64,000 nucleotides of DNA. It comes from Clostridium sp. DL-VIII (GTDB taxonomy: Bacteria > Bacillota > Clostridia > Clostridiales > Clostridiaceae). Positions 17,902-48,564 of this stretch are shown piece after piece. The position numbers and the translations under genes are program-made. Within the stretch, counting starts at the first letter, position 1. Each line of letters begins with the position of its first letter. The notes below the pieces were generated by a model. It worked only from the letters and a program-made list of their open reading frames with translations. It was not told where the DNA came from and searched no databases. Location: contig NZ_CM001240.1 in the NCBI RefSeq assembly GCF_000230835.1, forward strand, positions 1,806,501-1,870,500, written 5' to 3'.

Positions 17902-17937
17902 ATTGTAGCTATTAATAGGAAATGAGGAGTTAAGAAC

Positions 17938-18513: not shown

Positions 18514-18534
18514 GATTTCAAGGAGTATGGATTT

Positions 18535-30866: not shown

Positions 30867-31063
30867 GAATATATTAACATGTGAGTATATATATGGTAAA
30901 ATAGCCTTGGTAAATAATTAATATTAAGTATGATTTAATAGGTCATAATCATACAGATAAATAAATTATAAATTTTACGTATGTATAGAATAATTATTTA
31001 CATAAGCGAAAATCTAATATGACTTTTTATTAAGGAAACTATGATCCATATATTTTATTTTGG

Positions 31064-32646: not shown

Positions 32647-33234
32647 ATGAAGAAAATTACTATAATTTTATGCTTGTTTTGGATGGGATTTATATTCTAT
32701 ATGTCAAGTAATAATGGACAGATTTCTCATGGTCAAAGCACTAAAGTGGTTAAAATAATTGAAAATGCTAAATCAAAAATAGAAACTGAAACTCAAGATA
32801 AGAATACAAGTGAGATAAAGGCAGATAAAAGTGCTGATAATGAGCAAAAGGCAAATGGAGATACAGGAACAGGAAACGGGGTACAAGCTAATAAAAATAC
32901 AACTAATTTACAATCAGCAAAGTTAGAGGAATTGGATCATATAGTTAGAAAGAATGCTCATGGATTTTTATATATGACATTAGCTGTTTTTGTAAGCAGC
33001 ACGATATTTTCTTTCAACAAAAAAGGGAAAGATGCTGTGATTTATATACTATTTACATGTTTGTTTTATGCAGTTACTGATGAGTTCCATCAGGCTTTTG
33101 TACCTGGAAGGACTTCTATGGTAAGCGATATATTAGTTGATTTTTGTGGAGCTATAATAGGATTATTAATATTTTATTTTGTTTATTATAAAATATACAC
33201 TATATACGCTTCTAAAAAGCTAGAACGAAATTAA
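32647..33234 (+). CDS. VanZ-like membrane protein, module copy 1
   Basis: 195 residues. An N-terminal TM helix (about 3-20, then YMSSNNGQISHGQS) leads into a polar, low-complexity stretch (about 35-90), then HIVRKNAHGFLYMTLAVF, two or three TM helices, and the VanZ core YAVTDEFHQAFVPGRTSMVSDILVDF. VanZ proteins give low-level teicoplanin resistance in enterococci; most relatives have no known role. Its paralogue is at 43549. It begins the first surface-protein module and is followed after 90 bases by the ABC transporter gene. Confidence 0.9.
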   Translation: MKKITIILCLFWMGFIFYMSSNNGQISHGQSTKVVKIIENAKSKIETETQDKNTSEIKADKSADNEQKANGDTGTGNGVQANKNTTNLQSAKLEELDHIVRKNAHGFLYMTLAVFVSSTIFSFNKKGKDAVIYILFTCLFYAVTDEFHQAFVPGRTSMVSDILVDFCGAIIGLLIFYFVYYKIYTIYASKKLERN

Positions 33235-33324
33235 CAATCAGGCTTAAGGGGAGCTGTGATTGTAAGAAGAGCATAAATTAAATGCTTAATTTTAATAATA
33301 AAGATATACAAAAGGGGAGTATAG

Positions 33325-35307
33325 ATGAACTTATTAGAGATAAATGATATTAATAAATATTATAAATCAAAAGGAAATGAAAAGATTCATGTGTTAAAAA
33401 ATATAAATTTATATTTTAATAAGAATGAATTAGTATCTATTGTTGGAGAATCTGGTAGTGGAAAATCTACATTAATGAATATAATAGGTGGACTAGACTC
33501 TAACTATAGCGGGGAATTGTTTGTTAACGGAGAAAATATTAAAAAATTAAGAAAGAAAGAACTGGATACATATAGGAAAAATAAAATAGGTTTTGTATTT
33601 CAAAGTTTTAATTTAATACCTCATTTATCTATTTTGGATAATGTGACAATGGCTATGACTTTATCAAATGTCAGAAAGAAAGAGCGTACTAAGCGTGCAG
33701 AGAAGATGTTAGGTGAGCTTGGCTTAAAGGATCATATCTACAAGAAACCAAATCAGCTGTCTGGAGGTCAAAAGCAAAGAGTTGCTATTGCAAGAGCCTT
33801 AATTAATGATCCGGAAATAATTATTGCAGATGAACCAACAGGCAGCTTGGATTCAAAAACTTCAATGCAGGTTCTTGAAATAATGAGAACAATTGCAGAA
33901 AGAGGAAAGCTTGTAATAATGGTTACCCATTCTGAAAAGATAGCAGCCTGCTCCAGCAGAGTAATTAAGATAGCAGATGGTGAAATTATTGATGATAAGT
34001 ATTTATTTAAATTAGAAAATGAAATTAGTTATGATGAAGTTAAAAGCAGTGATAAAAAGCATTTTAGAAGAAGAGGACAAAATCTTAGTATTTTAGATTC
34101 TATAAAGTTAGCTCTGAATAATATGAAGGAAAAAGCAATACGTAATATATTTATTTCTATAGGGTCAAGCATAGGAATAATGAGCCTTATTTTAATGCTC
34201 TCTTTTGGGAATGGAATTAAGGCTTATTTTAATAACACTATGAACAGCTATGTTAATCCAATGGTAATAGAAGTTAATATGCCTAGTGATGATTCAGAAA
34301 CAGTAGATTTTGATATTGGCACGATACAAAAACCTAACATAAATAAGCAAAGCTCATTTAAAGATGAAGATATTCAAAAGTTATCGGAAGTAGAAAATGT
34401 AGCTTCTGTGGAAAATGGATTTACTGAAATTTCAATGGGAGCTAATTCTTTAAGCTGCAATGGAAGTGGAAGTAATATAATGAGACTTTCGACTATATCA
34501 TCAAATATAACAAAATCAAATCTTCAGGATGGAGAGCTGCCAGGGGCTGGAGAGATATTGGTTAATAAGGCTGTTAGTGATAAGCTTGGAGGAGATGTTA
34601 TAGGGAAAACAGCAACATTACATATTTTCGTGAATCAGAAAGTATTGACTAAGGATTTTGTAATAAGTGGAATTTATACTACTGCAGGCGGAGATCTTAC
34701 GGCAATAATGAAATCTGTTTTATTGAATTATTCGGACCTAGAGAATTTATATTCAGCTAATAATTATAAATTGAATCCTAATGTTATGTATCTAAAAACA
34801 ACTGATGATAAATATACTGCTTCAATTAAGGACAAGGTTAAGGAGCTTGGATATTCAGGCTCATCAGAGGAAGAAATGGTAAATATGTTTAATGAGATGA
34901 TAAGCATTTTAACATATGTGTTATCTGGAATTTCCGGGGTGTCTTTAATGGTTTCTGCAATCATGATAATAATTATTATGTACATAAGTGTAGTTGAAAG
35001 AACTAAAGAAATAGGAATAATTAAAGCTATTGGAGCAAGAAGTAAGGACATAAGAAGAATTTTTATTTGCGAAGCTTTTTTAATTGGACTTTTTGGGGGA
35101 GTTATTGGGGTTGCATTTTCAGTAGCTGCTATGAAAGGAATAAATATAATGTCCAATAAGTTATTTCATATTGATTTGGTGTTAATAAAGAATTCTTATA
35201 AAATGTTTGGAATTGCATTAAGTGTTGCAATAAGTATGGTGGCTGGATTATTCCCAGCTAACAAGGCAGCTAAGTTGGATCCGGTAGATTCTTTAAGAAG
35301 GGAATAA
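33325..35307 (+). CDS. MacB-like ABC transporter, ATPase fused to FtsX-type permease
   Basis: 660 residues. Residues 1-230 form the ATPase: Walker A GESGSGKST, signature LSGGQKQRVAIARAL, Walker B IIIADEPTGSLDSKT and the switch histidine in MVTHS. A TM helix near 275-295 leads to an extracellular domain of about 220 residues, then three TM helices from about 530 to 655, closing with PANKAAKLDPVDSLRRE. Such exporters move peptides, lipoproteins or antimicrobial compounds. GGGGAG lies before ATG 33325. A broken copy of its start exists at 29532. Confidence 0.94.
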   Translation: MNLLEINDINKYYKSKGNEKIHVLKNINLYFNKNELVSIVGESGSGKSTLMNIIGGLDSNYSGELFVNGENIKKLRKKELDTYRKNKIGFVFQSFNLIPHLSILDNVTMAMTLSNVRKKERTKRAEKMLGELGLKDHIYKKPNQLSGGQKQRVAIARALINDPEIIIADEPTGSLDSKTSMQVLEIMRTIAERGKLVIMVTHSEKIAACSSRVIKIADGEIIDDKYLFKLENEISYDEVKSSDKKHFRRRGQNLSILDSIKLALNNMKEKAIRNIFISIGSSIGIMSLILMLSFGNGIKAYFNNTMNSYVNPMVIEVNMPSDDSETVDFDIGTIQKPNINKQSSFKDEDIQKLSEVENVASVENGFTEISMGANSLSCNGSGSNIMRLSTISSNITKSNLQDGELPGAGEILVNKAVSDKLGGDVIGKTATLHIFVNQKVLTKDFVISGIYTTAGGDLTAIMKSVLLNYSDLENLYSANNYKLNPNVMYLKTTDDKYTASIKDKVKELGYSGSSEEEMVNMFNEMISILTYVLSGISGVSLMVSAIMIIIIMYISVVERTKEIGIIKAIGARSKDIRRIFICEAFLIGLFGGVIGVAFSVAAMKGINIMSNKLFHIDLVLIKNSYKMFGIALSVAISMVAGLFPANKAAKLDPVDSLRRE

Positions 35308-35405
35308 CAAATATTTCTAATTGTAAACTGTGTATTACAAATTGTGATATATACATTTCAAGTTTTTAATTACATATATATGTTGGTATGATAAAAAATA
35401 GATTT

Positions 35406-35467
35406 AAAAAATATGCTATTACTGTTTGTCCTGGTTTTTGAGACTTTTCAGTAATAGCATATTTTTT
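35406..35467. terminator. Bidirectional terminator between ABC and cell-wall-binding genes
   Basis: AAATATGCTATTACTG / CAGTAATAGCATATTT with a loop of about 24 bases, then seven T. A related hairpin lies at the same place in module copy 2 (44998-45056). Confidence 0.8.
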
Positions 35468-35592
35468 TATTTATGTTATAAGAATCTCGAGCTTATTGTA
35501 CTGCCATAATATCTGAAACTTATAAGCTCTTAAAATTTTATGAGAATTTTTTGAATAAGTGTCAATTGTTAATTGAGATAGATATAGTAATC

Positions 35593-36651
35593 CTATTGTT
35601 TATCCATTTTATAAAGCAAATTTTTAGCTAAGATATATACATCTCCATTATTAGCAATGAAAATATTTCCAGTATGACCTGAGCCAGTTACAGTGATATG
35701 TTTAACGCTATCTCCAGAGATACCTGCATCACTGAAAGAAACATTATTATATTTGCTTTTAAACTCTGATGAAGTCATAGTGCTTTCTTTAATAGCTGCA
35801 TTAGATATAGAATAATCAGATGATCCATTGTAATTAATTCCGTCGCTGTTAATTGTAAATGTAGTGTTTCCACCTAAATAAGCATTTACCAAAGCAGGTG
35901 TATAATTTGTTTCTGTTGTCATCTTAGTAGAAACACAATCACCTAAAGACCAAGTTCCATACAAGCTCTTATAATATGATGTACTTGTACCAGAATTAGT
36001 ACCTCCTGAAGCTCCACCAGATCCTCCTGCTGAAGAGCCGCTGCCTCCGCTAGTAGTTGTTGAAGAGTCGGTAGTTGAAGAAGTAGTTGTGTTAGCATTT
36101 GTTGTTGTAGCAGTAGAATTTTGGCTAGCATTTGTTGAAGTTACTTTTTCACCGCTTGCAGCAAAAGTGTAATTTACACCATTTATTGTAATGTTTCCAG
36201 TTTTCATAGCACCTGATTCACTTAAATAATAAGTCTTGCCATCTATGGCTGTTAATCCAGTCTGCATAGTACCAGCTGAATTTAAATAATACCAGCTGCC
36301 GTTATCGCTAAGCCAGCCAGTTTTCATTACACCTGATGATTGTAAATAGTACCATGAGGCTCCATCATTGATCCAGCCGGTTTTCATAGCTCCTGAAGAG
36401 GCTAAATAATACCAGCTGCCATTGTCATTTAACCAGCCGGTTTTCATAAATCCATTTGTATCGAAGAAGTACCAGTTTTCATCAATTGACTTCCAGCCAT
36501 AAACTGAATTATCTCCTTCTGAATAACTCCAATTACCATTATCTGCTTGAAGCCATGCAGCTGAAGCTTTAGATGCTGGTAAGACTGCCATTGAAGTTAC
36601 GAGCGTGATTGCCATTATAGCAAATAAATTTTTTAGTTTATTTCTTTTCAT
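35593..36651 (-). CDS. Secreted cell-wall-binding-repeat protein with YGTW C-terminal domain, copy 1
   Basis: 352 residues. Signal peptide (about 1-32, ending KASAA). Residues about 50-172 are six 20-residue choline/glucan-binding-type repeats (GWLNDNGSWYYLASSGAMKT pattern). A Ser/Thr/Gly/Asn-rich linker (about 173-226) leads to a C-terminal domain (about 227-352) that starts with YKSLYGTWSLGD. The domain is rich in beta-type segments and recurs in the copy at 45085, but I recognise no family; the GTW start recalls lipocalin-like folds. Transcribed away from the small exported protein gene, with a shared control region of about 330 bases. Confidence 0.88.
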   Translation of the reverse strand: MKRNKLKNLFAIMAITLVTSMAVLPASKASAAWLQADNGNWSYSEGDNSVYGWKSIDENWYFFDTNGFMKTGWLNDNGSWYYLASSGAMKTGWINDGASWYYLQSSGVMKTGWLSDNGSWYYLNSAGTMQTGLTAIDGKTYYLSESGAMKTGNITINGVNYTFAASGEKVTSTNASQNSTATTTNANTTTSSTTDSSTTTSGGSGSSAGGSGGASGGTNSGTSTSYYKSLYGTWSLGDCVSTKMTTETNYTPALVNAYLGGNTTFTINSDGINYNGSSDYSISNAAIKESTMTSSEFKSKYNNVSFSDAGISGDSVKHITVTGSGHTGNIFIANNGDVYILAKNLLYKMDKQ

Positions 36652-36854
36652 TTTAACACTCCCTATGTAATATATTAGTTAGCTGTTTCCAACTTAAGGA
36701 CTAATTTTATAAAATTTAAAATCATATATATAATTTACCATTATATCTGACAAAATTCAAAGAAATTATTAAATATTATTGGATTTACTGATAAATATGA
36801 AGTGATTTATTTTAGTTAAAAATGTGGTATTAATTCAAAATATGGTGGAAAATG

Positions 36855-36883
36855 TATTGTAATTAGGGGGAAAATGCTATAAT
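36855..36883 (+). promoter_or_regulatory. Promoter of the exported-protein gene, copy 1
   Basis: TATTGT (36855-36860), 17 bases, then TG-C-TATAAT. The stretch from TATTGTAATTA through GGAAAATG-TATAATATA is kept in module copy 2 at 46425-46453 while the DNA around it differs, which supports function. The divergent gap 36652-36978 holds no gene. Confidence 0.6.
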
Positions 36884-36978
36884 ATATGTATATGTATGTA
36901 GTAAATAGTTATAATTTCTTGTAAAGGTAATTATAACTATTAAGCAATATTTTTAATATTGAAAGGGGTCAGAATAAA

Positions 36979-37620
36979 ATGAAAATTAGAAAGTTATTAT
37001 CAATAGGGGCAATTGGATTAGCATTAGTTAGTGCAACATCTATTGGAGCATCAGCTGCTACAACATCTGATGGATTATCTCCTAAAACTAAGACTTTAAT
37101 AAAGGTTATGGCAAAGCAACAATATCAAAATGGAAAAAATCAAACAGATTTATTTTCGGGGGTTAATAAGGATTCTAAAATTGGAAGCGTTGCAAACAGC
37201 ACTGTAATAGCAGCAGTTGGAATAGCAAGCCCAGAAGCTCAAACAAAACTTGAAAATAACATCGATTTAACTTTCGAAGCAGCATTAGATAAAGTAACTA
37301 CTAATGAAGATACTTTTTATAGATTTAAGAGCTATTTTATAACTGCTGCAGGAAAATTAGAAGAGGCTGAAAATAAAACAGGGGACAAAAGAGTTGCTGC
37401 AGAAACAGAGTTCAGAACCTTTGTAAATTTATACAATAGCAAATTAAAAGTTAACTTTGGTAAAGATGGATATGGTGAAACTAGTGCAACATTAATGGAA
37501 GGCAGCAAGCTATTAGGCGAAGTTAATGAAACTGAAGTTCAAAAAGCAATTAATGAAGTAAATGATTTAGATTATGATAAGGCTCTTGCTGCAGAAAAAG
37601 ATTTAAATAGCGCTAATTAG
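36979..37620 (+). CDS. Exported protein of unknown family, copy 1
   Basis: 213 residues. Signal peptide MKIRKLLSIGAIGLALVSAT ending near ASAA (about 26). The mature part is helical and polar, with FSGVNKDSKIGSV near 60, a TTNEDTFYRFKSYF segment, and a VNFGKDGYGETSATL segment near 160. The protein at 46550 shares these points (FSGVDKDTKIGDI, KDEDTFNKFKNKF, VTFGKDSQGKTTASI). No enzyme motif or cysteine is seen. GAAAGGGG precedes the start in both copies. Function unknown; probably a secreted or wall-associated partner of the repeat proteins on each side. Confidence 0.75.
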   Translation: MKIRKLLSIGAIGLALVSATSIGASAATTSDGLSPKTKTLIKVMAKQQYQNGKNQTDLFSGVNKDSKIGSVANSTVIAAVGIASPEAQTKLENNIDLTFEAALDKVTTNEDTFYRFKSYFITAAGKLEEAENKTGDKRVAAETEFRTFVNLYNSKLKVNFGKDGYGETSATLMEGSKLLGEVNETEVQKAINEVNDLDYDKALAAEKDLNSAN

Positions 37621-37670
37621 TGTTTAGTGAAGTATGGATTTACATCATCAAGGAGGATTAATATATTAGC

Positions 37671-39017
37671 ATGAATAAGACTAAAAGAAGCATGAGCATT
37701 ATTATTGAAGTATTATTAATGCTTAGTATAATGTTTGGGGTATTATGTATATTTTTTCAAGTGGTTATATTAAATAGAAATACATATACAAGGATACTTG
37801 AAAAGAGTAATGCTTATGAACAAGTTAAAGAATCAATATATAGTAAAATAGATGCGATATTAAGTGCTAAGAATATTAATTATGACATTAAAGAATCAAT
37901 AATAACTGAAGATGATATAAAAAGAGAAGCAGATGCAGCAATTCCAGGAATTATAGATTATCTGAAAACTGGTAAAAACAATATACAGCCAGTAGACACA
38001 GAGGTATATAAGCAAAGAGTTGCAGACATGATACATTCTACGATGCAAAGCTTAATAAAACCAACTGGAGATTTGTCTTATAACAGTCATATAGACATTC
38101 AAAATACATCAAATGCTATAGATAAATATAAAGTGGATGAAATGATGGTCGTTAAAACTAAAGCACAAGTTGGACAAGATTCTTTAAAAGTAGAAAGGTT
38201 AATGTCAAAGGATGAAGCGGAAGCTAGGGTAAGAGAAATTTTAAAGCAAAAAGGTCTTACTGAAGAACAGGCAATTCAAAAAGCAAAAGAAAAAGGAATA
38301 ACCGAAGAGCAGGCTTTAAAAATATTAGCGGGATATGGCATAACAATTGATGGGGACCCCGCAAAAGATGAAAGTGATAGTAATAAAGAAAGCTCTGGAG
38401 AAAATCAAAGTAAAGCAAGTGGAAATAATGCCTCATCAGATATTAAGAGCAGTTCGGCAGATGAAAATAACAAAGAAAGTGTTAAGTCAGGTTCTCAGAA
38501 GGGTGATGCTAAACCTGCACAAAGTGCTGGAAGTCAATTAGAGATTATACAAAATAAGTTAATTGATGAAGCTGACAATGATATTGAAAAAGAAGTTGAA
38601 AAACTAGACTTGAGCAAAGTATTCAATGATAGCAGAATTGAAAAAATTGCAAAAGTAACCTCAATAGTATATAAAATGTTTTGGATGTTTATGAGTTTAC
38701 CTATAATCTTTATGATTATTTTGATTAAAACGAATAAGAAAAAAATTATATGCTCATTAAAACAGATAAGCAGGGCTTTTTTAATAGCGGGACTGATATT
38801 ATTTTCAATATTTGCAGGTGCTCATATCTTTAAATTTTATGAAAAGATTAATATTGGGCCAGTTTATTTCAAAGAAATTATTTCTTATGCAATAAAATAT
38901 TTATTAGAACTTCTATCCGTGTATGGTCTTATAACATTGATTGTAGGACTGCTTGTGTTTATTTTTACTAGCATGAAAATAAGAAAAATAGAGTCTAAAT
39001 TATTGCAGATAAAATAG
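37671..39017 (+). CDS. Four-TM membrane protein with large extracellular low-complexity region
   Basis: 448 residues. One TM helix at about 9-31, an extracellular part of about 300 residues, then three TM helices (about 341-358, 372-390, 412-436). The outer region has two helical LTEEQA / ITEEQA units (GLTEEQAIQKAKEKGITEEQ) near 205-220, followed by a Ser/Lys/Asn/Asp-rich linker (about 235-290). AAGGAGG precedes ATG 37671. Present only in module copy 1. I do not recognise a family; the layout suggests a surface scaffold or sensor. Confidence 0.75.
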   Translation: MNKTKRSMSIIIEVLLMLSIMFGVLCIFFQVVILNRNTYTRILEKSNAYEQVKESIYSKIDAILSAKNINYDIKESIITEDDIKREADAAIPGIIDYLKTGKNNIQPVDTEVYKQRVADMIHSTMQSLIKPTGDLSYNSHIDIQNTSNAIDKYKVDEMMVVKTKAQVGQDSLKVERLMSKDEAEARVREILKQKGLTEEQAIQKAKEKGITEEQALKILAGYGITIDGDPAKDESDSNKESSGENQSKASGNNASSDIKSSSADENNKESVKSGSQKGDAKPAQSAGSQLEIIQNKLIDEADNDIEKEVEKLDLSKVFNDSRIEKIAKVTSIVYKMFWMFMSLPIIFMIILIKTNKKKIICSLKQISRAFLIAGLILFSIFAGAHIFKFYEKINIGPVYFKEIISYAIKYLLELLSVYGLITLIVGLLVFIFTSMKIRKIESKLLQIK

Positions 39018-39089
39018 TTTCGTTAGCTTAAGATATCAAGATTAACATAATAACTAAAAGCGAAAATTATTAAGGAGGGCAATATAATA

Positions 39090-40091
39090 ATGTTAAGTTT
39101 AAAATTAAGAAAAGTAGTTGCAGCAGCAACAGTTGCAGCTTCAGTATTAGCTTTATCTCCAATAGGCGCATCAGCTGAATGGAGACAAGATTCTTATGGA
39201 TGGTGGAATACAGAAGGAAGTTCTTATTCTGTTGGCTGGAGTAATATCGATAATACTTGGTATTACTTTGGTACAGATGGATATATGAAGACAGGCTGGG
39301 TTAATGATGGAGGTACATGGTACTATTTACAATCATCAGGAGCAATGAAAACTGGCTGGGTTAACGATGGAGGTACATGGTACTATTTACAATCATCGGG
39401 AGCAATGAAAACTGGATGGATAAATGATAATGGAGTATGGTATTTTGCAGCATCATCAGGAGCAATGCAAACTGGTGTAATCCAAGTTGATGGAAAGATA
39501 TACTATCTTGCACCAAGTGGAGCAATGCAAAAAGGAACTGTAACAATAGATGGTAAAGTTTATACATTTGCATTGAGCGGAGAAGCAGTTGGAAGTGTAT
39601 TACCAACTCCAACTTTAGCATTTACATCTGCAGGAGTTTCAGCAGCATTAAATACAACAGGTAGTACAGGTACAGCTACACCAATAAGCAGCGGAGGTTC
39701 ATCAGGCGGTGGTGGCGGAAGCAGCAGTAGCGGAAGCAGCACAAAAGATAAACAACAAAAAGCCATAGATAATGCATTTGTAAGAGATACAAAGATTAGC
39801 TTAGGAGCTCCAATTGATAACAATAATGGAACTGTTACAGTACAAGCAAATGTAGATTTTGCAGCAGGTGATCCAGTTAACACAACAATAGGTGGAGTGA
39901 CTTATACTGGAACAAAAAATGTACACATAAGTTTTGATGATGGTACAGATGTAGGTTTAGAGGGAAATCTTAGTGATGGATTTAAAATTCAAAAAGGTAA
40001 GAACGGAACAATAGAAACAGTAATTACTTTAGTTGGATCTGATAACACTGTAAGATATGTTACTCCAAATCCAGTACATTTTGCTTATTAA
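39090..40091 (+). CDS. Secreted cell-wall-binding-repeat protein, second type, copy 1
   Basis: 333 residues. Signal peptide about 1-29 (SPIGASAEW). Residues about 50-170 hold six 20-residue repeats (GWVNDGGTWYYLQSSGAMKT twice in succession, identical). A linker rich in Gly and Ser (about 196-222) leads to a C-terminal domain (about 225-333) with beta-strand-like stretches (NNGTVTVQANVDFAAGDPV, YTGTKNVHISFDDGT). This C-terminal domain matches that of the protein at 47234 and differs from the YGTW domain. The start has AAGGAGGG. Binds wall polymer by its repeats; role of the end domain unknown. Confidence 0.87.
   Translation: MLSLKLRKVVAAATVAASVLALSPIGASAEWRQDSYGWWNTEGSSYSVGWSNIDNTWYYFGTDGYMKTGWVNDGGTWYYLQSSGAMKTGWVNDGGTWYYLQSSGAMKTGWINDNGVWYFAASSGAMQTGVIQVDGKIYYLAPSGAMQKGTVTIDGKVYTFALSGEAVGSVLPTPTLAFTSAGVSAALNTTGSTGTATPISSGGSSGGGGGSSSSGSSTKDKQQKAIDNAFVRDTKISLGAPIDNNNGTVTVQANVDFAAGDPVNTTIGGVTYTGTKNVHISFDDGTDVGLEGNLSDGFKIQKGKNGTIETVITLVGSDNTVRYVTPNPVHFAY
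39301..39420 (+). repeat. Two near-identical 60-bp coding repeats
   Basis: The units at 39301-39360 and 39361-39420 differ at four bases and encode the same 20 residues up to the last codon. They are recent duplicates within the wall-binding region, a likely place for copy-number change. Confidence 0.85.
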
Positions 40092-40198
40092 TAACCGCAA
40101 TAGTCTTTTGGTATTAGCAAAGTATATAATTTAAAATAGTATTTATATTTCGTACATGAGTTAAGTATAGTAATTGCTATATAAGTAATTTTCTAATT

Positions 40199-40243
40199 AA
40201 AAAGCAGTGAGGCGTTTAAATTCTTACTGCTTTTTATTTTTTT
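40199..40243 (+). terminator. Terminator after module copy 1
   Basis: AAAAGCAGT / ACTGCTTTTT stem with a loop of about 17 bases, then a T-rich run. Confidence 0.75.
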
Positions 40244-40616
40244 CTTGTTTTTCTGATATTCATTTAAATAAAGTAAGAAAAGCCTACAGATTTTTCTTAA
40301 ATAATATTGTTTAGAAATCATATTTTTAAGGATTTTACCCTTGAATTTGCCATTTGTCACTAGAAGGCTTTCCTTTTGATGTGATGAAAGTATAATTTTC
40401 GGTTAAAAATATTAAAATAATGTCTAAAGCTTGTATGGCCTGCCTTTACAAGAATATTAAATTATGGTATTATAACTTAAAAGATTTATAAAATATTATC
40501 AATTTATTTGATGGATTAGCATAAATATAGTTATATAATTGCGACATTAATTGTAGGATTAAACAAAGTAGTATAGTAGGAAATTGATAATATCTAAATA
40601 GTAGGAGGATGGAAAG
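40244..40616. other. Gap before the TrpXYZ-like transporter
   Basis: AT-rich and without a gene. I looked for a T-box, whose AGGGTGG core would be expected if the transporter were controlled by tryptophan through tRNA, and did not find one. AGGAGG sits 8 bases before the start of the binding-protein gene. Confidence 0.4.
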
Positions 40617-41633
40617 ATGGTAGGAAAAAAGAAAGCAGCGATGCTATTATGCACAGTTTTAGTTGGAGGGATTCTTGCAGGATGTGGGAAAGGTGCGACA
40701 GATTCAAATAACCAAGGGGGAACTTCATCAGCAGTAAAAAATGTTGGAGTAATTCAATTGGTTCAACATGATGCTTTAGATGCATCTAATAAGGGGTTTG
40801 TTGACGGACTAAAAGAAAAAGGATATGAAGAAGGAAAAAATATTAAGATTGAACAGCAAAATGCTCAGGGTGAACAAGCTAATGCACAAACAATTGCTAA
40901 GCAATTTGTAGATTCAAAGAAAGATTTGATTTTTGCAATTGCTACACCAGCAGTTCAAGCGGCATATAATTCGACTAAAGATATTCCGATAGTATTTACA
41001 GCAGTAACAGATCCTGTAAAGGCTGAAGTAGCAAAAGATTGGAAAAGTTCAGGGACAAATGTTACTGGAACATCGGACAAAGTTCCAGTTGACAAGCAAA
41101 TAGAACTTCTTAAAAAATTACTTCCAAATGCAAAGACAATAGGTGTAATTTATAATACTTCAGAAACAAATTCAGTAGTTCAAGTTGATGAACTTAAAGA
41201 AGCAGCTGAAAAAGAAGGACTAGCAGTGAAAGAAGTTGGAGTTACTACTGTAAATGAAATAAATCAAAATTTAACAAGTGCATTAGATCAAATAGATGCA
41301 TTATATACGCCAACAGATAATACAGTTGCATCTGGTTATGCATTAGTTGGCAAACTTTGTTTAGATAAAAACGTTCCTATAATAGGTGCAGAAGAGGCGG
41401 TTGTAGAAAAAGGCGGTCTTGCATCAATAGGTATAGATTATTATAAATTAGGTAAAGAGGCAGGATACAAAGCAGCAGAAGTTTTAGATGGAAAGAAACC
41501 ATCAGATGTTGAAATAAGTACATTAAGTGATATGTCATATACTATAAATACTGATGTTGCTAAAAAGTTAAATGTAGCAATTCCATCAGATATAGAAGAA
41601 AGTTGTAAGAAGGTAACTGGAGGCGTTGAATAG
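40617..41633 (+). CDS. ABC transporter substrate-binding lipoprotein (TrpX-like)
   Basis: 338 residues. Lipoprotein signal with lipobox LAGC at about Cys23. The body belongs to the ABC_sub_bind family (PF04392): GVIQLVQHDALDASNKGF, IATPAVQAAYNSTKDIPIVF, GTSDKVPVDKQIELL and YTPTDNTVASGYALVG. Members deliver aromatic amino acids or similar compounds (TrpX of streptococci). First of three overlapping genes. Confidence 0.9.
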   Translation: MVGKKKAAMLLCTVLVGGILAGCGKGATDSNNQGGTSSAVKNVGVIQLVQHDALDASNKGFVDGLKEKGYEEGKNIKIEQQNAQGEQANAQTIAKQFVDSKKDLIFAIATPAVQAAYNSTKDIPIVFTAVTDPVKAEVAKDWKSSGTNVTGTSDKVPVDKQIELLKKLLPNAKTIGVIYNTSETNSVVQVDELKEAAEKEGLAVKEVGVTTVNEINQNLTSALDQIDALYTPTDNTVASGYALVGKLCLDKNVPIIGAEEAVVEKGGLASIGIDYYKLGKEAGYKAAEVLDGKKPSDVEISTLSDMSYTINTDVAKKLNVAIPSDIEESCKKVTGGVE

Positions 41634-42535
41634 TGGGAGTTTTAATAAATATTTTAGAACAAGGACTACTATTTTCACTAGTTTCCATTGGAGTATATAT
41701 AACTTACAAAATTTTAGATTTTCCTGATCTATCTGTAGATTCAACATTTCCACTTGGTGCTGCAATTTCTGCAGCACTGCTGGTAAAAGGAGTTAATCCT
41801 TGGATCACAATAATAGTGGCAACTATAGGTGGGGCAATAGCTGGAGGAGTAACAGCATTTTTACACGTAAAGCTTAAGATAACAAACTTAATGGCTGGAA
41901 TATTAGTTATGATAGGTTTATATTCTATAAACTTAAGAATAATGGGAAAAGCTAATATCCCATTGTTTAATACACCGAATTTGTTTAAATTATCTATTCC
42001 GGCACTAGTATTGATTTTAGTAATAGTTATTATTGTAAAAATATTATTAGATTTATATTTGAAAACAAAATCAGGATTTTTACTTAGAGCTGTAGGAGAT
42101 AATGAACAGGTGGTTTCATCTCTTGGGGTAAATAAAGATTTAGTTAAGGTTTTAGGACTTATGATAAGTAATGCGTTAGTTGCACTTGCTGGGGCGCTAA
42201 CTGCACAATATCAAGGTTTTAGTGATGTTGGAATGGGAACGGGTACAGTAGTAATGGGGCTTGCAGCTGTAATAATTGGTACATCATTATTTGAAAGAAT
42301 ATCATTTATTAAAGTGACTACATTATCAATATTTGGTGCAGTCATATATAAAGCAGCAATAGCAATTGTCTTAAAATTAGGTTTAAATGCTAATGATTTA
42401 AAACTAATGACTGCAATAATTGTAGTTATAGCATTATGTTCTAACAGTGGGGTTCTTAAATTTAAAAAGAAAAAAACTATTGTGGAAGGTGGTGCAAAAG
42501 ATGCTAAAGGTGAGACAACTATCCAAAGTATTTAA
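41633..42535 (+). CDS. ABC transporter permease (TrpY-like)
   Basis: 300 residues, about eight TM helices, branched-chain amino acid permease type (BPD_transp_2). FPDLSVDSTFPLGAA, TNLMAGILVMIGLYSINLRIMG and the loop VGDNEQVVSSLGVNKD are characteristic. The GTG start shares a base with the stop of the binding-protein gene. Confidence 0.9.
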   Translation: MGVLINILEQGLLFSLVSIGVYITYKILDFPDLSVDSTFPLGAAISAALLVKGVNPWITIIVATIGGAIAGGVTAFLHVKLKITNLMAGILVMIGLYSINLRIMGKANIPLFNTPNLFKLSIPALVLILVIVIIVKILLDLYLKTKSGFLLRAVGDNEQVVSSLGVNKDLVKVLGLMISNALVALAGALTAQYQGFSDVGMGTGTVVMGLAAVIIGTSLFERISFIKVTTLSIFGAVIYKAAIAIVLKLGLNANDLKLMTAIIVVIALCSNSGVLKFKKKKTIVEGGAKDAKGETTIQSI

Positions 42536-43295
42536 TCCAAATACAATAAATGAAAACAGGGTGTTTGATAAATTGTCTTTAGAAGTTAAACAAGGTGATT
42601 TCATAAGTATAATTGGTTCTAATGGAGCTGGTAAGTCAACATTATTGAATATGATATCGGGAACATTAGAAGCTGATACAGGGTCCATATTATTAGATGG
42701 AGATGAAGTTATTGATAAGCCGGAGTATGTAAGGTCAAAGTCTATAGGACGAGTATTTCAAGATCCATCTAAAGGTGTTGCACCTAATATGACCATATTA
42801 GAAAATATATCTCTTGCAGATAACAAGGGAAAAACCTTTGGACTTGGATTTGGTATAAATAAGAAGAGAATAGACTATTATAAAGAGATGGTGAGAGAGC
42901 TTAATTTAGGCTTAGAAGATAAACTTTATAATAAGGTATTGCTTTTATCCGGAGGACAAAGACAAGCCTTGACGCTGCTTATGTCAGTAATGTCTAAACC
43001 GAAGTTGTTGCTTTTAGATGAGCATACTGCTGCCTTGGATCCAAAAACATCGGAGATAATAATGGATATTACTAGGAAAATTGTTAGGGAAAGCGGAATA
43101 ACAACCCTTATGGTTACACATAATCTAAAACATGCTCTTGAAAATGGTAACAGACTTTTCATGATGCATAGAGGTAAAATACTAGTAGATGTTAAAGATG
43201 AAGAAAAAGAAAAGTTAGATAATAATAAACTTCTTGGGCTTTTTGAAAAAGCTAATGGAGCAGAAGCATTAAGTGATAGAACTTTATTTGGATAA
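42501..43295 (+). CDS. ABC transporter ATPase (TrpZ-like)
   Basis: 264 residues. Walker A GSNGAGKST, signature LLSGGQRQALTLLMS, Walker B LLLLDEHTAALDPKTS and switch MVTHN. ATG 42501 is chosen, with GGAAGGTGG upstream; it overlaps the permease gene by 35 bases. Completes the importer. Confidence 0.92.
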   Translation: MLKVRQLSKVFNPNTINENRVFDKLSLEVKQGDFISIIGSNGAGKSTLLNMISGTLEADTGSILLDGDEVIDKPEYVRSKSIGRVFQDPSKGVAPNMTILENISLADNKGKTFGLGFGINKKRIDYYKEMVRELNLGLEDKLYNKVLLLSGGQRQALTLLMSVMSKPKLLLLDEHTAALDPKTSEIIMDITRKIVRESGITTLMVTHNLKHALENGNRLFMMHRGKILVDVKDEEKEKLDNNKLLGLFEKANGAEALSDRTLFG

Positions 43296-43399
43296 AAGTG
43301 AAAAGTAGCATTGAGATAAAATATAAGTGAAAAATATTCAATTTGAATAAAATCACAAAATCATTAAGTATAATTTTAAATAATATGGAAATTAAATAT

Positions 43400-43446
43400 A
43401 ACAGATAAGATGAATTAATTCAATAATCTTATCTGTTTTTTATTTT
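43400..43446 (+). terminator. Terminator after the TrpXYZ-like operon
   Basis: AACAGATAAGAT / ATCTTATCTGTT stem followed by TTTTATTTT. Confidence 0.85.
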
Positions 43447-43548
43447 GAAGTGTTTATGATTGTTTAATATATGAAATATAGGTAAATAATTAAATATTCA
43501 CGTTTATCTTTATACAGATTTAAATTAATAAAGAAAAGAGGTACTTAA

Positions 43549-44121
43549 GTGAAGAAAGTTATTATACTTTTATGTTTATTTTGGATGGGATTTATATTTT
43601 TCATGTCAAGCAGCAATGGGCAGGTTTCTCATAGCGAAAGTATTAAAGTAGTTAACATAATTGAGGAAGCTAAATCAAAATTGCAAAATGAACTACCAGA
43701 TAATACAATAAGTCAGTCGAGACTAGATAAATCCACTAATAGTGATGAAAAAGTAAGTCAAAATGCAGAAGTAAACCATGAGGCACAAGCAAATAAAAAT
43801 ACACCTAATTTACAGTCAGCAAAATTAAGTCAATTAGATCAAATAATCAGAAAAAATGCCCATGGATTTTTATATATGACATTAGCTATTTTTGTAAGCG
43901 GCATACTGTTCATATATAACAAAAAAGGAAAGGATGCAGTGATTTACATATTATTTATTTGCTTGCTTTATGCAGTAACTGATGAATTCCATCAGTCTTT
44001 TATCCCTGGGAGAACAGCTATGGTTAGTGATGTTTTAGTAGATTTTTCTGGCTCAATAATAGGCTTAGCAGTTTTTTATTTCATTTATTATAAGATATAT
44101 ACTTCTAAAAAAAGGTGTTAA
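43549..44121 (+). CDS. VanZ-like membrane protein, module copy 2
   Basis: 190 residues, closely similar to the product of 32647: the same start (CLFWMGFIFFMSSSNGQVSHS), a polar variable middle, ANKNTPNLQSAKL, IIRKNAHGFLYMTLAIF and YAVTDEFHQSFIPGRTAMVSDVLVDF. The middle (about 35-85) is the least conserved part between the two. GTG start with AGAGG upstream. Confidence 0.9.
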   Translation: MKKVIILLCLFWMGFIFFMSSSNGQVSHSESIKVVNIIEEAKSKLQNELPDNTISQSRLDKSTNSDEKVSQNAEVNHEAQANKNTPNLQSAKLSQLDQIIRKNAHGFLYMTLAIFVSGILFIYNKKGKDAVIYILFICLLYAVTDEFHQSFIPGRTAMVSDVLVDFSGSIIGLAVFYFIYYKIYTSKKRC

Positions 44122-44232
44122 GCACTAGTATAGAGATTAACTGTGTAAAATCTTTAAGAAGATTAAATGTAGGTTATAATTAAATTATTAGGTGATTTTA
44201 TGATATAGTTATTGTATAGAGGAGATGATAGT

Positions 44233-44808
44233 ATGGAACCTAATAAATTAGAAAACTCATTATTAAAAGAAGAATGGATTAATAATGTAAAATATATGTC
44301 GCCAAGACCTATATATAATCATATAGAGTTACAAGGAGAATTATATTTACAATTAAAAAATTATTTCAAGAAGTCTTGTAATGTTTCAATTGAAGCTGCT
44401 TTATTTCTAACTAAAGAAGATCCAACTATTATTAAATCTGATAAAAATAGTATTGATAATTTAATAAAATCGAAAAAAGCTGAAGTGGCTCCAGATGTTG
44501 CAGTGTATTGTGACAAAAATCAAATTTTTTATAGAGGTTATATAGGAATTCCACAATTAATTATAGAAGTTTTAAGTCCATCAAATCCGGATGATGATCT
44601 TATTTCTAAAAAAGACCTATATGAAGAATATGGTGTACCAGAATATTGGATTGTATCACCAATGAGTAAAAAAATATGGATCTATTCATTAGTAAATAAT
44701 AAATATGAATTGAAGCATAGTTGTACATTAAACGAGAAATTTAATGCTATAAGGTTTAAAGATTTAGAAATAGATTTATCAGAAGTGGAACTAATAGAAG
44801 AAGATTAA
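44233..44808 (+). CDS. Uma2-family (DUF820) putative endonuclease
   Basis: 191 residues. NVKYMSPRPIYNHIELQGELYLQL, AEVAPDVAVYC, PQLIIEVLSPSNPDDDLISKKDLYEEYGVPEYWIV with the PD/ExK-like core is the Uma2 signature. These restriction-endonuclease-fold proteins are common in cyanobacteria and clostridia; their role is unknown and many may come with mobile DNA. ATG 44233 has GAGGAG about 9 bases upstream. It replaces the ABC transporter position of module copy 1. Confidence 0.88.
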   Translation: MEPNKLENSLLKEEWINNVKYMSPRPIYNHIELQGELYLQLKNYFKKSCNVSIEAALFLTKEDPTIIKSDKNSIDNLIKSKKAEVAPDVAVYCDKNQIFYRGYIGIPQLIIEVLSPSNPDDDLISKKDLYEEYGVPEYWIVSPMSKKIWIYSLVNNKYELKHSCTLNEKFNAIRFKDLEIDLSEVELIEED

Positions 44809-44997
44809 ATTATTTTGGAAACAGTTAAAGGATTGCTAAGGGAAATGTTATTCTATAAAAAGTGTTTAGAAAGATATGTACATTAGTAAGTGAGGTACAA
44901 GTTCAGCACAAGCATCTAGGAAATTTAAAACTTTTCGGGGACAAGTATAAAAATTATATATGGAATAGATAGAACAGATTAGGTTAATAAAAAATAT

Positions 44998-45056
44998 AAA
45001 GTATGTTGTTACAGTTTGTCTTAATTATAAAAACTGTAACAGCATACTTTAATTTT
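44998..45056. terminator. Bidirectional terminator in module copy 2
   Basis: AAAGTATGTTGTTACAGTTT pairs with AAACTGTAACAGCATACTTT (one G-U) around a loop of 13 bases. Same position relative to the YGTW gene as the hairpin at 35406. Confidence 0.75.
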
Positions 45057-45084
45057 ACTTAAAATTAAATAAGTAAAGTATATA

Positions 45085-46146
45085 TTATTGTTTTGCTAAT
45101 TTATAAAGTGCGTAGTTGTCTACTAAGGCATATACGTTTCCGTCATCTACAATGAGAACAGTTACAGGGATGTTATGATTTTGGGAATTATAATTTATAG
45201 TTATATTGCTGGAAATATATTTAGCTTGATCACCATATATTCCTAATTCTTTAAAGGCATTTCCGTATTTGCTATAAAAAGTTGAGGAAGTCATAATACC
45301 TTCACGAATAGAAGAATTATCAACATCTCCAAAACCATTTACAGTTATTCCACTACTGTTTATTGTAAATTCTTGTCCTACAGCTAAACCTACGAGAGCA
45401 TCCTTTTTTTCATTAGAAACAGCATTCTTAAGTTTAGGAGTTATGATACTTGATACATTCCAAGTTCCATATAAGCTTTTAGAATATGAACTTGAGTTAG
45501 AACTGCCTGAACCACCAGATGACCCACCTGAACTGCCAGAACTAGACCCGTCTGAGGTTCCTGAAGTTGACGAACTAGAGCTTGCGCTAGCAGTTGTCCC
45601 TGTACTAGCGGTAGCTGTCGTATTTACAGCAGATGAACTGATTTTTTCTCCGGTAGCAGCAAAGGTATAATTTATTCCGTTAACAGTAATATCTCCTGTC
45701 TTCATTGCTCCGGATTCGCTTAAGTAATAAGTTTTACCATTTACGTTAGCAAGTCCAGTCTGCATAGTGCCTGATGGATTTAGATAATACCAGGAACCAT
45801 TATAAAGCAGCCATCCAGTTTGCATAGCACCAGATGAATTAGTATAGTACCATGTGCCACCATCGTTTATCCAGCCGATTTTCATCTCTCCAGAAGTGGA
45901 AAGATAATACCATGTACCTTCGTTATTTAACCATCCAGTTTTCATATTTTCGTTAGAATCAAAGAAATACCATTGTCCGTCAATAGATTTCCATCCAGAA
46001 ACTAAGCTATTTTCATTACTGTAGTTCCAATTACCGCTATCAGTTTGTATCCAAGCAGCTGAGGCTTTAGTTGGAATTATAACTACCGAAGCTGAAAGTG
46101 TTGCAGCCATAATGATTAGTAATGTCTTTAGTTTTAAATTTCTCAT
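45085..46146 (-). CDS. Secreted cell-wall-binding-repeat protein with YGTW C-terminal domain, copy 2
   Basis: 353 residues. Signal peptide about 1-31 (TKASAAW), six wall-binding repeats (GWLNNEGTWYYLSTSGEMKI type, about 50-172), a Ser/Gly/Thr linker, and a C-terminal domain starting YSKSLYGTWNVSS that ends VYALVDNYALYKLAKQ. Shared marks with copy 1 are SLYGTW, the INSxGI segment, REGIMTSSTFYSKY versus KESTMTSSEFKSKY, and the ending. ATG 46146 has AGAGG upstream; an in-frame GTG at 46155 lies within that site. Confidence 0.88.
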   Translation of the reverse strand: MRNLKLKTLLIIMAATLSASVVIIPTKASAAWIQTDSGNWNYSNENSLVSGWKSIDGQWYFFDSNENMKTGWLNNEGTWYYLSTSGEMKIGWINDGGTWYYTNSSGAMQTGWLLYNGSWYYLNPSGTMQTGLANVNGKTYYLSESGAMKTGDITVNGINYTFAATGEKISSSAVNTTATASTGTTASASSSSSTSGTSDGSSSGSSGGSSGGSGSSNSSSYSKSLYGTWNVSSIITPKLKNAVSNEKKDALVGLAVGQEFTINSSGITVNGFGDVDNSSIREGIMTSSTFYSKYGNAFKELGIYGDQAKYISSNITINYNSQNHNIPVTVLIVDDGNVYALVDNYALYKLAKQ

Positions 46147-46549
46147 TATTAACACCTCTTATACATTTGATTTAAAGTCTGTATTTAAAAGACCATAAGA
46201 AAGACTTTATATATAATTTACCATGCTAAATGGAAAAAATAAACAAATTTTTAAAAAATAACAAAATGAATGTAAAATTCATCATATATTTATTTAACTA
46301 TATATATTGATTTAATAATTCTACATTTTCAAGAAATCCTGTAAGGATTTCAACTGCAATTGTCAATTGTACTTTGTAAATTGTTAATTGCAACATATAT
46401 ATATTACAAAGTAAAGTTAATATATATTGTAATTAAAAGGAAAATGATATAATATAAAGTATATGGTAAAAATTTACAATAGGCTGATGCAAATAACTAT
46501 AATTAACTTATAATTACGCAGTCACAATAATGAAAGGGGATAGAATAAA
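46147..46549. promoter_or_regulatory. Divergent control region of module copy 2
   Basis: 403 bases without a gene. It holds the conserved promoter at 46425-46453 and, near 46300-46405, a stretch ending AATTGCAACATATATATA that resembles the right end of the inverted-repeat elements at 53149 and 54930. Confidence 0.45.
46425..46453 (+). promoter_or_regulatory. Promoter of the exported-protein gene, copy 2
   Basis: TATTGT, 17 bases, TG-A-TATAAT (46448-46453). Nearly identical to 36855-36883, including the AATTA and GGAAAATG between the boxes. Confidence 0.6.
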
Positions 46550-47185
46550 ATGAAGGTCAAAAAAGTATTAGCAATAGGAACAGTTGGACTTGTGTTATCT
46601 TGTTCTACATCTATTGGGGCATCAGCAGTTACTATACCTAGTAATGCTGACTTAATAAAAATAGCCGTGAATCAATATAAAAATGGTACCAATCCAACAG
46701 GTGTATTTTCTGGAGTTGACAAAGATACTAAGATTGGAGACATTTTAAGTGAAGATGTCCTAAATGAAATTGACTCCCAGCTTTCAAGCAATGCATCTAT
46801 AGATAAACTTATAACTAAAATTCAAAATAATAAAAACGATACAGTAGCAAGTGTTTTAGATAAAGCAACAAAAGATGAGGATACGTTCAATAAATTTAAG
46901 AATAAATTTGTAGAGATTGCACAAAAAGTGCAGGCAATGGATTCTAAAGTTGGAACAGATAGAATAAATGCAGAGCAAAAGGTCATTGATATTACAAAGG
47001 CATATGATAAAAGTTTTGATGTTACATTTGGGAAGGATAGTCAAGGAAAGACAACTGCATCTATAACAAAGGGTGGAAACATCATAATTCAACTTAACTC
47101 TGATAATTTACAAACAATTATAGATAGAGTTAGTGGTATATCGTGGGAAGAAGTTTCGTACGCAAAGGCTTTACTTAAATATTAG
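46550..47185 (+). CDS. Exported protein of unknown family, copy 2
   Basis: 211 residues. Signal peptide MKVKKVLAIGTVGLVLSCST ending near ASAV. Aligns by eye with the product of 36979 in its signal peptide, in FSGVDKDTKIGDI, in DEDTFNKFKNKF and in VTFGKDSQGKTTASI, but is otherwise well diverged. GAAAGGGG precedes the start. Followed after about 50 bases by the second-type wall-binding protein gene. Confidence 0.75.
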   Translation: MKVKKVLAIGTVGLVLSCSTSIGASAVTIPSNADLIKIAVNQYKNGTNPTGVFSGVDKDTKIGDILSEDVLNEIDSQLSSNASIDKLITKIQNNKNDTVASVLDKATKDEDTFNKFKNKFVEIAQKVQAMDSKVGTDRINAEQKVIDITKAYDKSFDVTFGKDSQGKTTASITKGGNIIIQLNSDNLQTIIDRVSGISWEEVSYAKALLKY

Positions 47186-47233
47186 AAAAAAGAGTTTCTT
47201 TTGGAAGAATACAAGGAGGGTATAATAATAATA

Positions 47234-48295
47234 ATGAAAAGCTTAAAAATAAGAAAAATATTAGCGGCAATAGCAGCAGCATTAACAATAGCAGCTCTAT
47301 CGCCAATAAGTGCTTCGGCAGAATGGAAACATGATAATAGTGGATGGTGGAATACAGAGGGAAGCTCATATTCTGTTGGATGGGAAAGTATAGATGGTGT
47401 ATGGTATTACTTTGGTTCAGACGGATATATGAAAACAGGCTGGGTAAATGATGGAGGCATATGGTATTATATGCAGCCATCAGGTGCCATGAAGGCAGGA
47501 TGGCTAAATGATAAAGGTACATGGTACTATATGCAGCCATCGGGTGCAATGAGTACAAGCTGGGTAAATGATGGAGGAGTATGGTATTATATGCAGCCAT
47601 CAGGTGCTATGAAAACAGGATGGATAAATGATAATGGAGTAATGTATTTTGCTTCAGCTTCTGGAGCAATGCAGACTGGTGTAATTAAGATTGATAATAA
47701 AATATATTACTTTGCCCCAAACGGAGCAATGCAAAAAGGTCAAGTAACAATTAATGGTGTAGTTTATACTTTTGCAGCAACAGGAGAAGCTATAGGGGAC
47801 AAAGTGCCAGCTCTAGTTTTAGCATTCACATCTGCCGGGGCACCAGTTTCAATAACTAATCCTACAGAGACAGCTGATACGAATAATACAGTAAAGAATA
47901 GCACTTCTAATCACCATGGGGGAGGTTATTCTCAGCTTACTGAGCAGCTGGTAGAAAATCAATATAAAGCTTCTACAGAAATTACTAAAGAGGCTGAAGT
48001 GGACAAAAATGCAGATGGAACAACTACTATAAAGCCTGCAGTTAGCTTTACACCAGGAACATATAAGGAATATATATATGCAACTGGTAAAACATATACT
48101 GTTACAAAAGATGTTTATATAACTCTAAATGGAAAGGATGCATATATAACTGGAGATTATACAAATGGATATAAACTTGATAAGGGTGCAAGTGGAGCAG
48201 TTGAAATATCTGCTAATATCTCAATACTAGATAGTGATAGTGGTAAGCTGTATTATGTTGCATCTTCAAAGCCAGAGGAAATCATGATTAAGTAA
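47234..48295 (+). CDS. Secreted cell-wall-binding-repeat protein, second type, copy 2
   Basis: 353 residues. Signal peptide to about ASAEW, seven 20-residue repeats (GWVNDGGIWYYMQPSGAMKA type), a linker rich in Thr, Asn and His (TSNHHGGGYS), and a C-terminal domain of about 110 residues related to that of the 39090 protein (DGTTTIKPAVSFTPGTYKEY, YTVTKDVYITLNGKD). ATG 47234 is 14 bases after AGGAGG, rather long; a run of ATA codons (encoding IIII) fills the gap, so an earlier non-ATG start is possible. Confidence 0.85.
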   Translation: MKSLKIRKILAAIAAALTIAALSPISASAEWKHDNSGWWNTEGSSYSVGWESIDGVWYYFGSDGYMKTGWVNDGGIWYYMQPSGAMKAGWLNDKGTWYYMQPSGAMSTSWVNDGGVWYYMQPSGAMKTGWINDNGVMYFASASGAMQTGVIKIDNKIYYFAPNGAMQKGQVTINGVVYTFAATGEAIGDKVPALVLAFTSAGAPVSITNPTETADTNNTVKNSTSNHHGGGYSQLTEQLVENQYKASTEITKEAEVDKNADGTTTIKPAVSFTPGTYKEYIYATGKTYTVTKDVYITLNGKDAYITGDYTNGYKLDKGASGAVEISANISILDSDSGKLYYVASSKPEEIMIK

Positions 48296-48370: not shown

Positions 48371-48409
48371 AATGCGGATGGTCGAAATTAAAGATTATCC
48401 GCATTTTTG
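48371..48409 (+). terminator. Terminator after module copy 2
   Basis: AATGCGGAT / ATCCGCATT stem, loop of about 17 bases, then TTTTG. Confidence 0.75.
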
Positions 48410-48564
48410 TCTTAATTAATCGAAAAATTTATTAAAGTTACTGGAATAGTATATTTTCTATGCTATAATATTTTTTGTTGGATGTTCAGGAATAAATTAT
48501 ATATAGAATAGGTATATAAAATGTATTAATTCTTTTATATATAATGGCACAAAGAGGTGAAACA

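Follow-up and report, generated by a model that had tools for sequence, protein, structure and literature searches.

A candidate polymorphic cell-envelope cassette present in two copies in Clostridium sp. DL-VIII

A stretch of 64,000 nucleotides from Clostridium sp. DL-VIII (NZ_CM001240.1, positions 1,806,501 to 1,870,500; C1:1806501-1870500 of G000, a complete Clostridium genome of 6.48 Mb), called the window here, contains two copies of a gene set for predicted surface proteins. With about even confidence, the set is read as a polymorphic cell-envelope cassette whose types spread by exchange between strains. Its parts are named S (secreted protein), T (membrane protein), H (choline-binding protein after S or T) and F (divergent choline-binding protein with a YGTW end domain). 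S, T and H are one unit, and F is a frequent partner. The cassette differs drastically between close relatives at a fixed chromosomal site, whereas the flanks and the compared paired choline-binding proteins do not, and S, T, H and F diverge in parallel, with no clear correspondence to the divergence of the flanking genes.

Composition and distribution of the cassette

Copy 1 runs VanZ, MacB, F1 (minus strand), S1, T1, H1, and copy 2 runs VanZ, Uma2, F2 (minus strand), S2, H2, without T. An ATP-binding cassette (ABC) trio (PF04392, PF02653 and an ABC ATPase) lies between them. An earlier note on this DNA had described two blocks at these positions and in this order, with a MacB-like ABC protein in the accessory slot of one and a Uma2 protein in that of the other, and open reading frames and Pfam scans bear this out. 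The order, promoter and 3' hairpins that it took to be kept are indeed found in both copies, the hairpins having been read directly or folded. The features are as follows (window positions).

32647-33234, plus: VanZ copy 1, conserved flank outside the variable unit (PF04892, E 3.6e-20; RKNAH, DILVD)
33325-35307, plus: MacB-like one-chain ABC ATPase/FtsX permease, conserved flank (PF00005, PF12704, PF02687)
35410-35463, no strand: hairpin between the convergent MacB and F1 genes (inverted repeat read directly)
35593-36651, minus: F1, choline-binding wall protein; variable C-terminal YGTW domain at 35593-35979 (PF19127/PF01473, end-domain profile)
36725-36741, no strand: conserved F-side element TATATATAATTTACCAT, copy 1 (recognisable in 7 of 8 loci aligned)
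36855-36886, plus: conserved promoter-like element of the S operon, copy 1 (recognisable in 7 of 8 loci aligned)
36979-37620, plus: S1, secreted, 213 amino acids, acidic, no Cys in the mature part (from sequence)
37671-39017, plus: T1, membrane protein with four transmembrane segments and an extracellular part; Lit-like model, no conserved His
39090-40091, plus: H1, choline-binding wall protein; variable C-terminal domain at 39753-40088 (PF19127/PF01473, end-domain profile)
40199-40235, plus: terminator-like hairpin 3' of H1 (read directly)
43549-44121, plus: VanZ copy 2, sister of copy 1 (PF04892, E 6.4e-21; RKNAH, DVLVD)
44212-44808, plus: Uma2 protein in the slot held by MacB in copy 1 (PF05685, E 4.9e-22)
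44998-45050, no strand: hairpin 3' of F2, sequence-related to the hairpin after F1 (fold z -6.96)
45085-46155, minus: F2, choline-binding wall protein; YGTW domain at 45085-45489 (Pfam repeats, end-domain profile)
46208-46224, no strand: conserved F-side element, copy 2 (alignment)
46425-46456, plus: conserved promoter-like element of the S operon, copy 2 (alignment)
46550-47185, plus: S2, secreted, 211 amino acids, outside the S1 clade
47201-48295, plus: H2, choline-binding wall protein, likely start 47234; C-terminal domain at 47957-48292
48371-48405, plus: terminator-like hairpin 3' of H2 (read directly)
48544-49830, plus: RarA, conserved right flank of the cassette site in relatives (blastp across loci)

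F1, F2, H1 and H2 all score above cut-off for PF19127 and PF01473 (choline-binding repeats), and the end domains of F and H match no Pfam family among those scanned. Such repeats are abundant in G000, with at least 157 PF19127 matches when the best 150 of 328 candidates were scored. S, F and H each begin with a signal-peptide-like stretch, with no Cys where it ends. S1 and S2 have neither a match to NF058670 nor a C-terminal hydrophobic stretch, that is, no sorting signal. Both VanZ copies carry the VanZ-2 motifs RKxxH and DxxxD (as defined in PMC12419801), MacB falls below the NCBIfam MacB equivalog cut-off (329 of 966 bits), and Uma2 is probably unrelated to the cassette. PADLOC, run on ten window proteins, matched only MacB (generic ATPase/permease) and Uma2 (candidate family PDC-S03). 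The promoter-like and F-side elements of relatives were judged by eye in the 8 aligned loci; promoter-like sites in general show no enrichment (97 against 95.6 expected). A pattern scan for terminator-like sites found 6 against 4.7 expected and missed the cassette hairpins, and the three other fold inputs (z 0.62, -0.33 and 0.16) excluded the hairpin or part of it.

A profile built from 52 S proteins (A4) detected S in 12 of 68 genus genomes at 16 places, four genomes (G000, G007, G022 and G036) having two places each. In a family sample, S was found in 14 of 206 genomes, the two outside the genus being weak matches. H directly follows S on the same strand at all 16 places, and the 16 strong matches of the H end domain in the 68 genomes all coincide with these; one extra match, weak and broken, is in another genome. 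T lies between S and H at 14 of the 16 places, the exceptions being copy 2 and one G004 place, and long T is found in exactly the same 12 of 68 genomes (15 places). Thus, T belongs to the core, and copy 2 most likely lost it. The earlier note was right that copy 2 lacks this four-transmembrane protein, but it is not an extra peculiar to copy 1. F is divergent and upstream of S at 9 of the 16 places, with an insertion sequence intervening in one. Its YGTW end domain is matched 24 times in 16 genomes; 10 of these matches lie at S or T loci and 14 elsewhere, 7 of the latter in frames of 174-183 amino acids (three were read). The proposal of a cell-envelope set that is kept together, with two predicted wall-bound proteins and a small secreted one, therefore stands, with S and H never apart at the places found and F partly apart.

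A scan of genome contigs with S alone gave no matches. The scan with the T profile gave eight loci, which belong to C. chromiireducens DSM 23318 (two), C. beijerinckii HUN142, C. weizhouense, Clostridium sp. SM-530-WT-3G (two) and two metagenome assemblies; in the T protein search, the best 7999 candidates by shared words were scored. A phage or plasmid carrier is unsupported, because S and T have no match in viral contigs and T has none in phage or plasmid records.

Some loci of the cassette have peculiarities. Group II intron pieces lie directly 3' of H at L049:13256-13568, where an IS4-type transposase takes the F position, and an IS701-type transposase lies between F and S at L056:8247-9449. 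The H of the second G004 locus (L094:16066-17358) has a different end domain of about 200 amino acids with a weak S-like match. Its reading as an S domain joined to choline-binding repeats was set aside as a lead only (P 1.7e-4, prob 49; unrelated pairs 0.004-0.64). P0021 is S fused to an H end domain, in a single metagenome cluster that may be a deletion artefact.

Variation at a fixed site and origin of the copies

Identities and correlations were tabulated for 8 of the 16 S places, leaving out copy 2, both G022 places, one of the two in G007, both in G036, and those in G067 and G004. Among these genomes, G002, G003 and G013 are close relatives, with 98-100% identity in RarA, 93-99% in MacB and 90-94% in VanZ. 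Between G002 and G013, mature S is 33%, T 54%, the H end 34% and the F end 49% identical, while the flanking proteins are 92-100% identical. The difference between G002 and G003 is milder (S 50%, T 67%, H end 39%, F end 51%). In DNA of G002 and G013, compared per 500 bases over aligned positions only, identity is 90-97% on the left and 95-100% from RarA onward, against 63-71% in S, T, the H end and the F end; the first half of H has 80% and the spacer before RarA 86%. Within F and H, the wall-binding halves are better kept than the end domains. The first half of F is 91% identical in amino acids between G002 and G013, the 200 bases upstream of F are 89% identical, and the first half of H is 77-81% identical among the three relatives, no closer than among other genomes. 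As a control, 29 paired choline-binding proteins of G002 and G013 outside the locus are 88-100% identical (91-100% over the last 112 residues), and the locus F and H are the two lowest of the 31 pairs. Of the genomes compared, it is the more distant G007 that comes closest to G013 in these parts (S 62%, T 67%, H end 63%, F end 59%), with MacB at 77%. Seven T clusters labelled C. beijerinckii are 46-100% identical to one another, such source names being loose. Though few in number, the genomes G002, G013 and G003 show what looks like allelic replacement at one chromosomal site that conserved flanks enclose. Such a sharp difference of matched sets between near-constant flanks suggests a surface device that is pushed to change by phages or rival bacteria.

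Mantel-type correlations were calculated over 6-8 places with all label permutations. Within the cassette, r is 0.72 for S-H (reached by 4 of 40320 permutations), 0.63 for S-T (61/40320), 0.51 for T-H (161/40320), 0.66 for T-F (5/5040), 0.56 for S-F (18/5040) and 0.50 for H-F (65/5040). Against MacB, it is 0.23 for S (577/5040), 0.15 for T (1171/5040), 0.12 for H (1350/5040) and 0.39 for F (54/720), and S gives 0.15 with VanZ (847/5040) and 0.14 with RarA (148/720). The flanks correlate among themselves (MacB-RarA 0.92, MacB-VanZ 0.92, VanZ-RarA 0.89). When MacB is held constant, the values become 0.75 (S-T), 0.84 (S-H), 0.53 (T-H), 0.61 (S-F), 0.74 (T-F) and 0.59 (H-F).

It could be argued that these are weakly constrained accessory surface proteins that diverge fast, and that their co-variation is linkage only. 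The cassette genes are adjacent, and in the sortase-associated cassettes described below T and the small protein also evolve faster than their neighbours. Linkage can account for the co-variation of S, T and H; the co-variation of the F end is modest, and this end also leans to the flank; and the control pairs were taken at places with similar frame lengths, which biases them toward conserved genes. On the other side, a conserved stretch, its own first half and the promoter, separates the F end from S, T and H, so that co-variation across it is the better hint of joint function. Moreover, the difference between G002 and G013 looks like a replacement of the cassette, with G007, a distant genome, as the closest, and order, promoters and reading frames are kept. 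Weak constraint as the whole explanation is judged rather unlikely.

The earlier note favoured export or antimicrobial defence, in which MacB and VanZ act with the exported and wall-bound proteins. Both are frequent neighbours (full-length MacB lies near 9 of the 16 S places, two of them sharing one gene), VanZ is known in lipoglycopeptide resistance (PMC7146870), and an ABC ATPase and a large permease-like gene precede the sortase-type cassette L096. However, S, F and H have signal-peptide-like starts of their own, and MacB and VanZ follow RarA, not clearly S, T or H. No full-length MacB is found in copy 2 or in six other neighbourhoods (L050, which starts at a contig end, L053, L057, L059, L060 and L061), L060 having a 152-residue frame with 49% identity over 80 residues. 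This proposal now appears improbable.

The two copies are old homologues and not an assembly duplication, since their three longest two-copy families have 73-77% base identity over 300 bases; the concern of the note about such an artefact is thereby removed. Protein identity between the copies is 67% in VanZ, 65% in the first half of F and 46% in its end, 34% in mature S, and 73% in the first half of H and 34% in its end. In the VanZ tree the copies are sisters (support 100/99). S1 falls in a clade of 8 rows (100/100) with P0003, P0026, P0028, P0019, P0030, P0032 and P0036, and S2 is outside it, its partner being P0004 (99/94), with L050 and L049 in a looser grouping (84-86). The F tree does not settle how F1 and F2 are related. 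Since the VanZ copies are sisters and the S1 clade excludes S2, this is not a simple block duplication, and the blocks cannot be kept as one duplicated unit, as the note had it. This pattern of trees would result if a local duplication was followed by replacement of cassette parts, or if an older duplication was combined with conversion of VanZ. In L051, L052, L055, L056 and L058 the cassette lies between MacB and RarA-IscR-NifS, and copy 2 adjoins RarA-IscR-NifS, the site used by these relatives.

Relatives of T and other genes of the window

A shorter T (281-298 amino acids) is found in a second set of 8 genus genomes. At six of these 8 loci, it adjoins a small secreted protein, whose C terminus is of the sorting type, and a class D sortase. 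Four of the six sortases exceed the NF058671 cut-off (140 bits) and two are below (136 and 72); four of the small proteins were scanned, all matching NF058670 below its 32-bit cut-off, and the others were read by eye. One of the two remaining loci has T alone; in the other (L102:9159-10317), a truncated small secreted protein runs into T without a sortase, apparently by deletion. In a sample of the whole class, with at most 6 candidates scored per genome, 25 of 391 genomes had a T match (E 1e-3), 4 of these genomes being of the genus. Contexts were read at the 8 non-genus loci with E <= 1.3e-10: six have the same trio (sortase called by a purpose-built profile, sorting ends by eye), one is cut by a contig end and one has no sortase. 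In all, 12 of 16 loci read across Clostridia have short T next to both a class D sortase and a sortase-type small protein. In three short-T genomes compared, T (30-36% identity) and the small protein (34-42%) are the least conserved genes of the locus, the sortase having 54-61% and other neighbours 63-83%. Other class D sortases of the genus (L173-L177) adjoin a secreted protein of about 720-740 amino acids, in genomes without a T-profile match.

Short and long T are homologous beyond doubt (profile against profile, prob 99.9, E 2e-37). For S and the small sorted protein, the best case is that of L096, which matches the mature S profile at E 1.5e-6 among 774 frames, but its profile-profile P values of 0.007-0.015 do not improve on the lowest unrelated pairs (0.004 and 0.007). 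NF058671 has no match in G000, and there is no sortase at the window site. Class D sortase matches (E 1e-3) occur in 2 of the 12 S genomes against 40 of 56 others (Fisher p 7e-4, relatedness ignored), and none in the 12 exceeds the NF058671 cut-off. Thus, the window type looks like a sortase-free relative.

The model of T has a fold match to Lit, and the short T profile gives a weak collinear match to clostridial Lit (P 2.2e-4; unrelated pairs 0.0013-0.66). Could T then be an active Lit-type lipoprotein-modifying enzyme, with S, H and F as its clients? The catalytic pair of Lit is described as His85 and His153 (PMC8275575), and two histidines with the same spacing of 68 are invariant in 11 clostridial Lit proteins (12 loci, one of which gave no frame). 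In neither T alignment (14 short, 14 long) does any column have His in at least half of the rows, and in S, F and H no Cys stands where the signal-like stretch ends, so that this idea is highly improbable. A clear Lit homologue is encoded elsewhere in G000 (C1:6462681).

Another possibility is that S is a toxin against other strains, secreted or held in the wall, and T its membrane immunity protein, the types diversifying as matched pairs. S and T are adjacent and vary together, T is present in all 12 S genomes, and four genomes have two S places. Nevertheless, S of copy 2 has no T of its own, and one G004 S has no adjacent T; neither S nor T has a match to any toxin or immunity family; the presumed relatives have C-terminal sorting signals, which would attach them to the wall of the producing cell; and H and F are given no role, although H is bound to S as tightly as T is. 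We consider it unlikely.

Elsewhere in the window, an exopolysaccharide-type cluster (4511-20668) contains a sugar transferase, glycosyltransferases, a flippase, sugar-nucleotide genes and one radical SAM protein (seven proteins scanned). It is followed by a lacto-N-biose phosphorylase with all three domains (23664-25823) and, on the minus strand, by a protein that fuses Wzz and ParA/kinase-like P-loop domains (27762-29141), matched by adjacent frame pairs in L050, L053 and L060. A c-di-GMP-II riboswitch (31025-31109) precedes a sugar transferase gene (31252-31917); the same type is found in L053, and c-di-GMP-I and -II in L058. A link of c-di-GMP to the cassette was rejected, as these riboswitches precede other genes or lie distant from S, T, H and F. 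A 102-residue protein with short G-F/Y-rich repeats (32030-32338) has homologues of 66-72% identity near the cassette in L051, L052, L056 and L058. A T-box leader (55199-55375) precedes a gene for 879 amino acids.

Proposed mechanism and comparison with known systems

If the cassette is a polymorphic cell-envelope device, T may serve as a platform in the membrane. It would have a Lit-like fold but probably no transacylase activity, and its extracellular part, in the wall zone, would work with S. H and F would be held in the wall via choline-bearing teichoic acids, with their variable end domains facing outward. S would stay in the assembly without sortase linkage to the wall, unlike its presumed relatives in other Clostridia. 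Phages, phage-tail bacteriocins or competing strains would meet the variable face, and cassette exchange between strains through the homologous flanks would spread new types. In a more specific form, which is possible and proposed tentatively, the cassette would be a recognition system: T as a non-catalytic Lit-fold platform, S as a variable ligand, and H and F as variable wall-held receptors, exchanged as matched sets that set adhesion, killing or infection. Its sortase-anchored ancestor would be found across Clostridia, and species with choline in the wall would have exchanged covalent anchoring for choline binding. Choline in teichoic acids is found in few bacteria, one of which is C. saccharoperbutylacetonicum, with 66 annotated choline-binding proteins (PMC3593318). 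This species also has an S homologue (P0011), which fits choline binding in place of covalent anchoring.

No description of this cassette was found among the titles listed from open full-text literature, there being no published name to search by and subscription journals lying mostly outside this scope; nor was one found for the cassette of small sorted protein, class D sortase and T in several clostridial families. Among known systems, Lit (PF07314) differs from T of the window in its catalytic histidines, and T does not exceed the Pfam cut-off for it; without the histidines, T is not a Lit enzyme. It would be a case of an enzyme fold seemingly turned into a non-catalytic surface platform. 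F and H resemble pneumococcal-type choline-binding proteins in their PF19127/PF01473 repeats but differ in end domains outside the scanned Pfam families. The class D (LPxTATN) sortase cassette shares a homologous T with a small secreted protein encoded beside it, and in C. perfringens the SrtD gene is described in an operon with the sorted protein (PMC4498605). The window type is not such a cassette, because it has no sortase and S has no sorting signal, and a choline-binding H is added. Their connection links a sortase cassette of several clostridial families to a sortase-free relative, by which its role becomes testable in harmless, tractable species.

The closest parallel is the surface-layer (S-layer) cassette of C. 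difficile (slpA region), which is reported to recombine frequently (PMC7677006), and in which the wall-bound part is described as most conserved and the outermost as most variable, with types deciding phage sensitivity (PMC10100898). The features that recall it are the variation of outer, non-anchoring parts, an apparent exchange at one site, and the matching of parts within a set. The window cassette adds four-transmembrane and small secreted proteins, shows no sequence relation that we found and gives no evidence of a crystalline layer. The wall anchor of SlpA is of the CWB2 type, and Pfam scans of F1, F2, H1 and H2 gave choline-binding repeats and no CWB2; because the anchors differ, it is not of the S-layer cassette family. 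Solvent-producing clostridia are grown industrially and are troubled by phages. If the reading is true, the cassette is a candidate strain-type and phage-sensitivity locus for them, comparable to that of C. difficile. On the best reading, it would be a polymorphic envelope assembly that operates as the S-layer cassette of C. difficile does but does not belong to that family.

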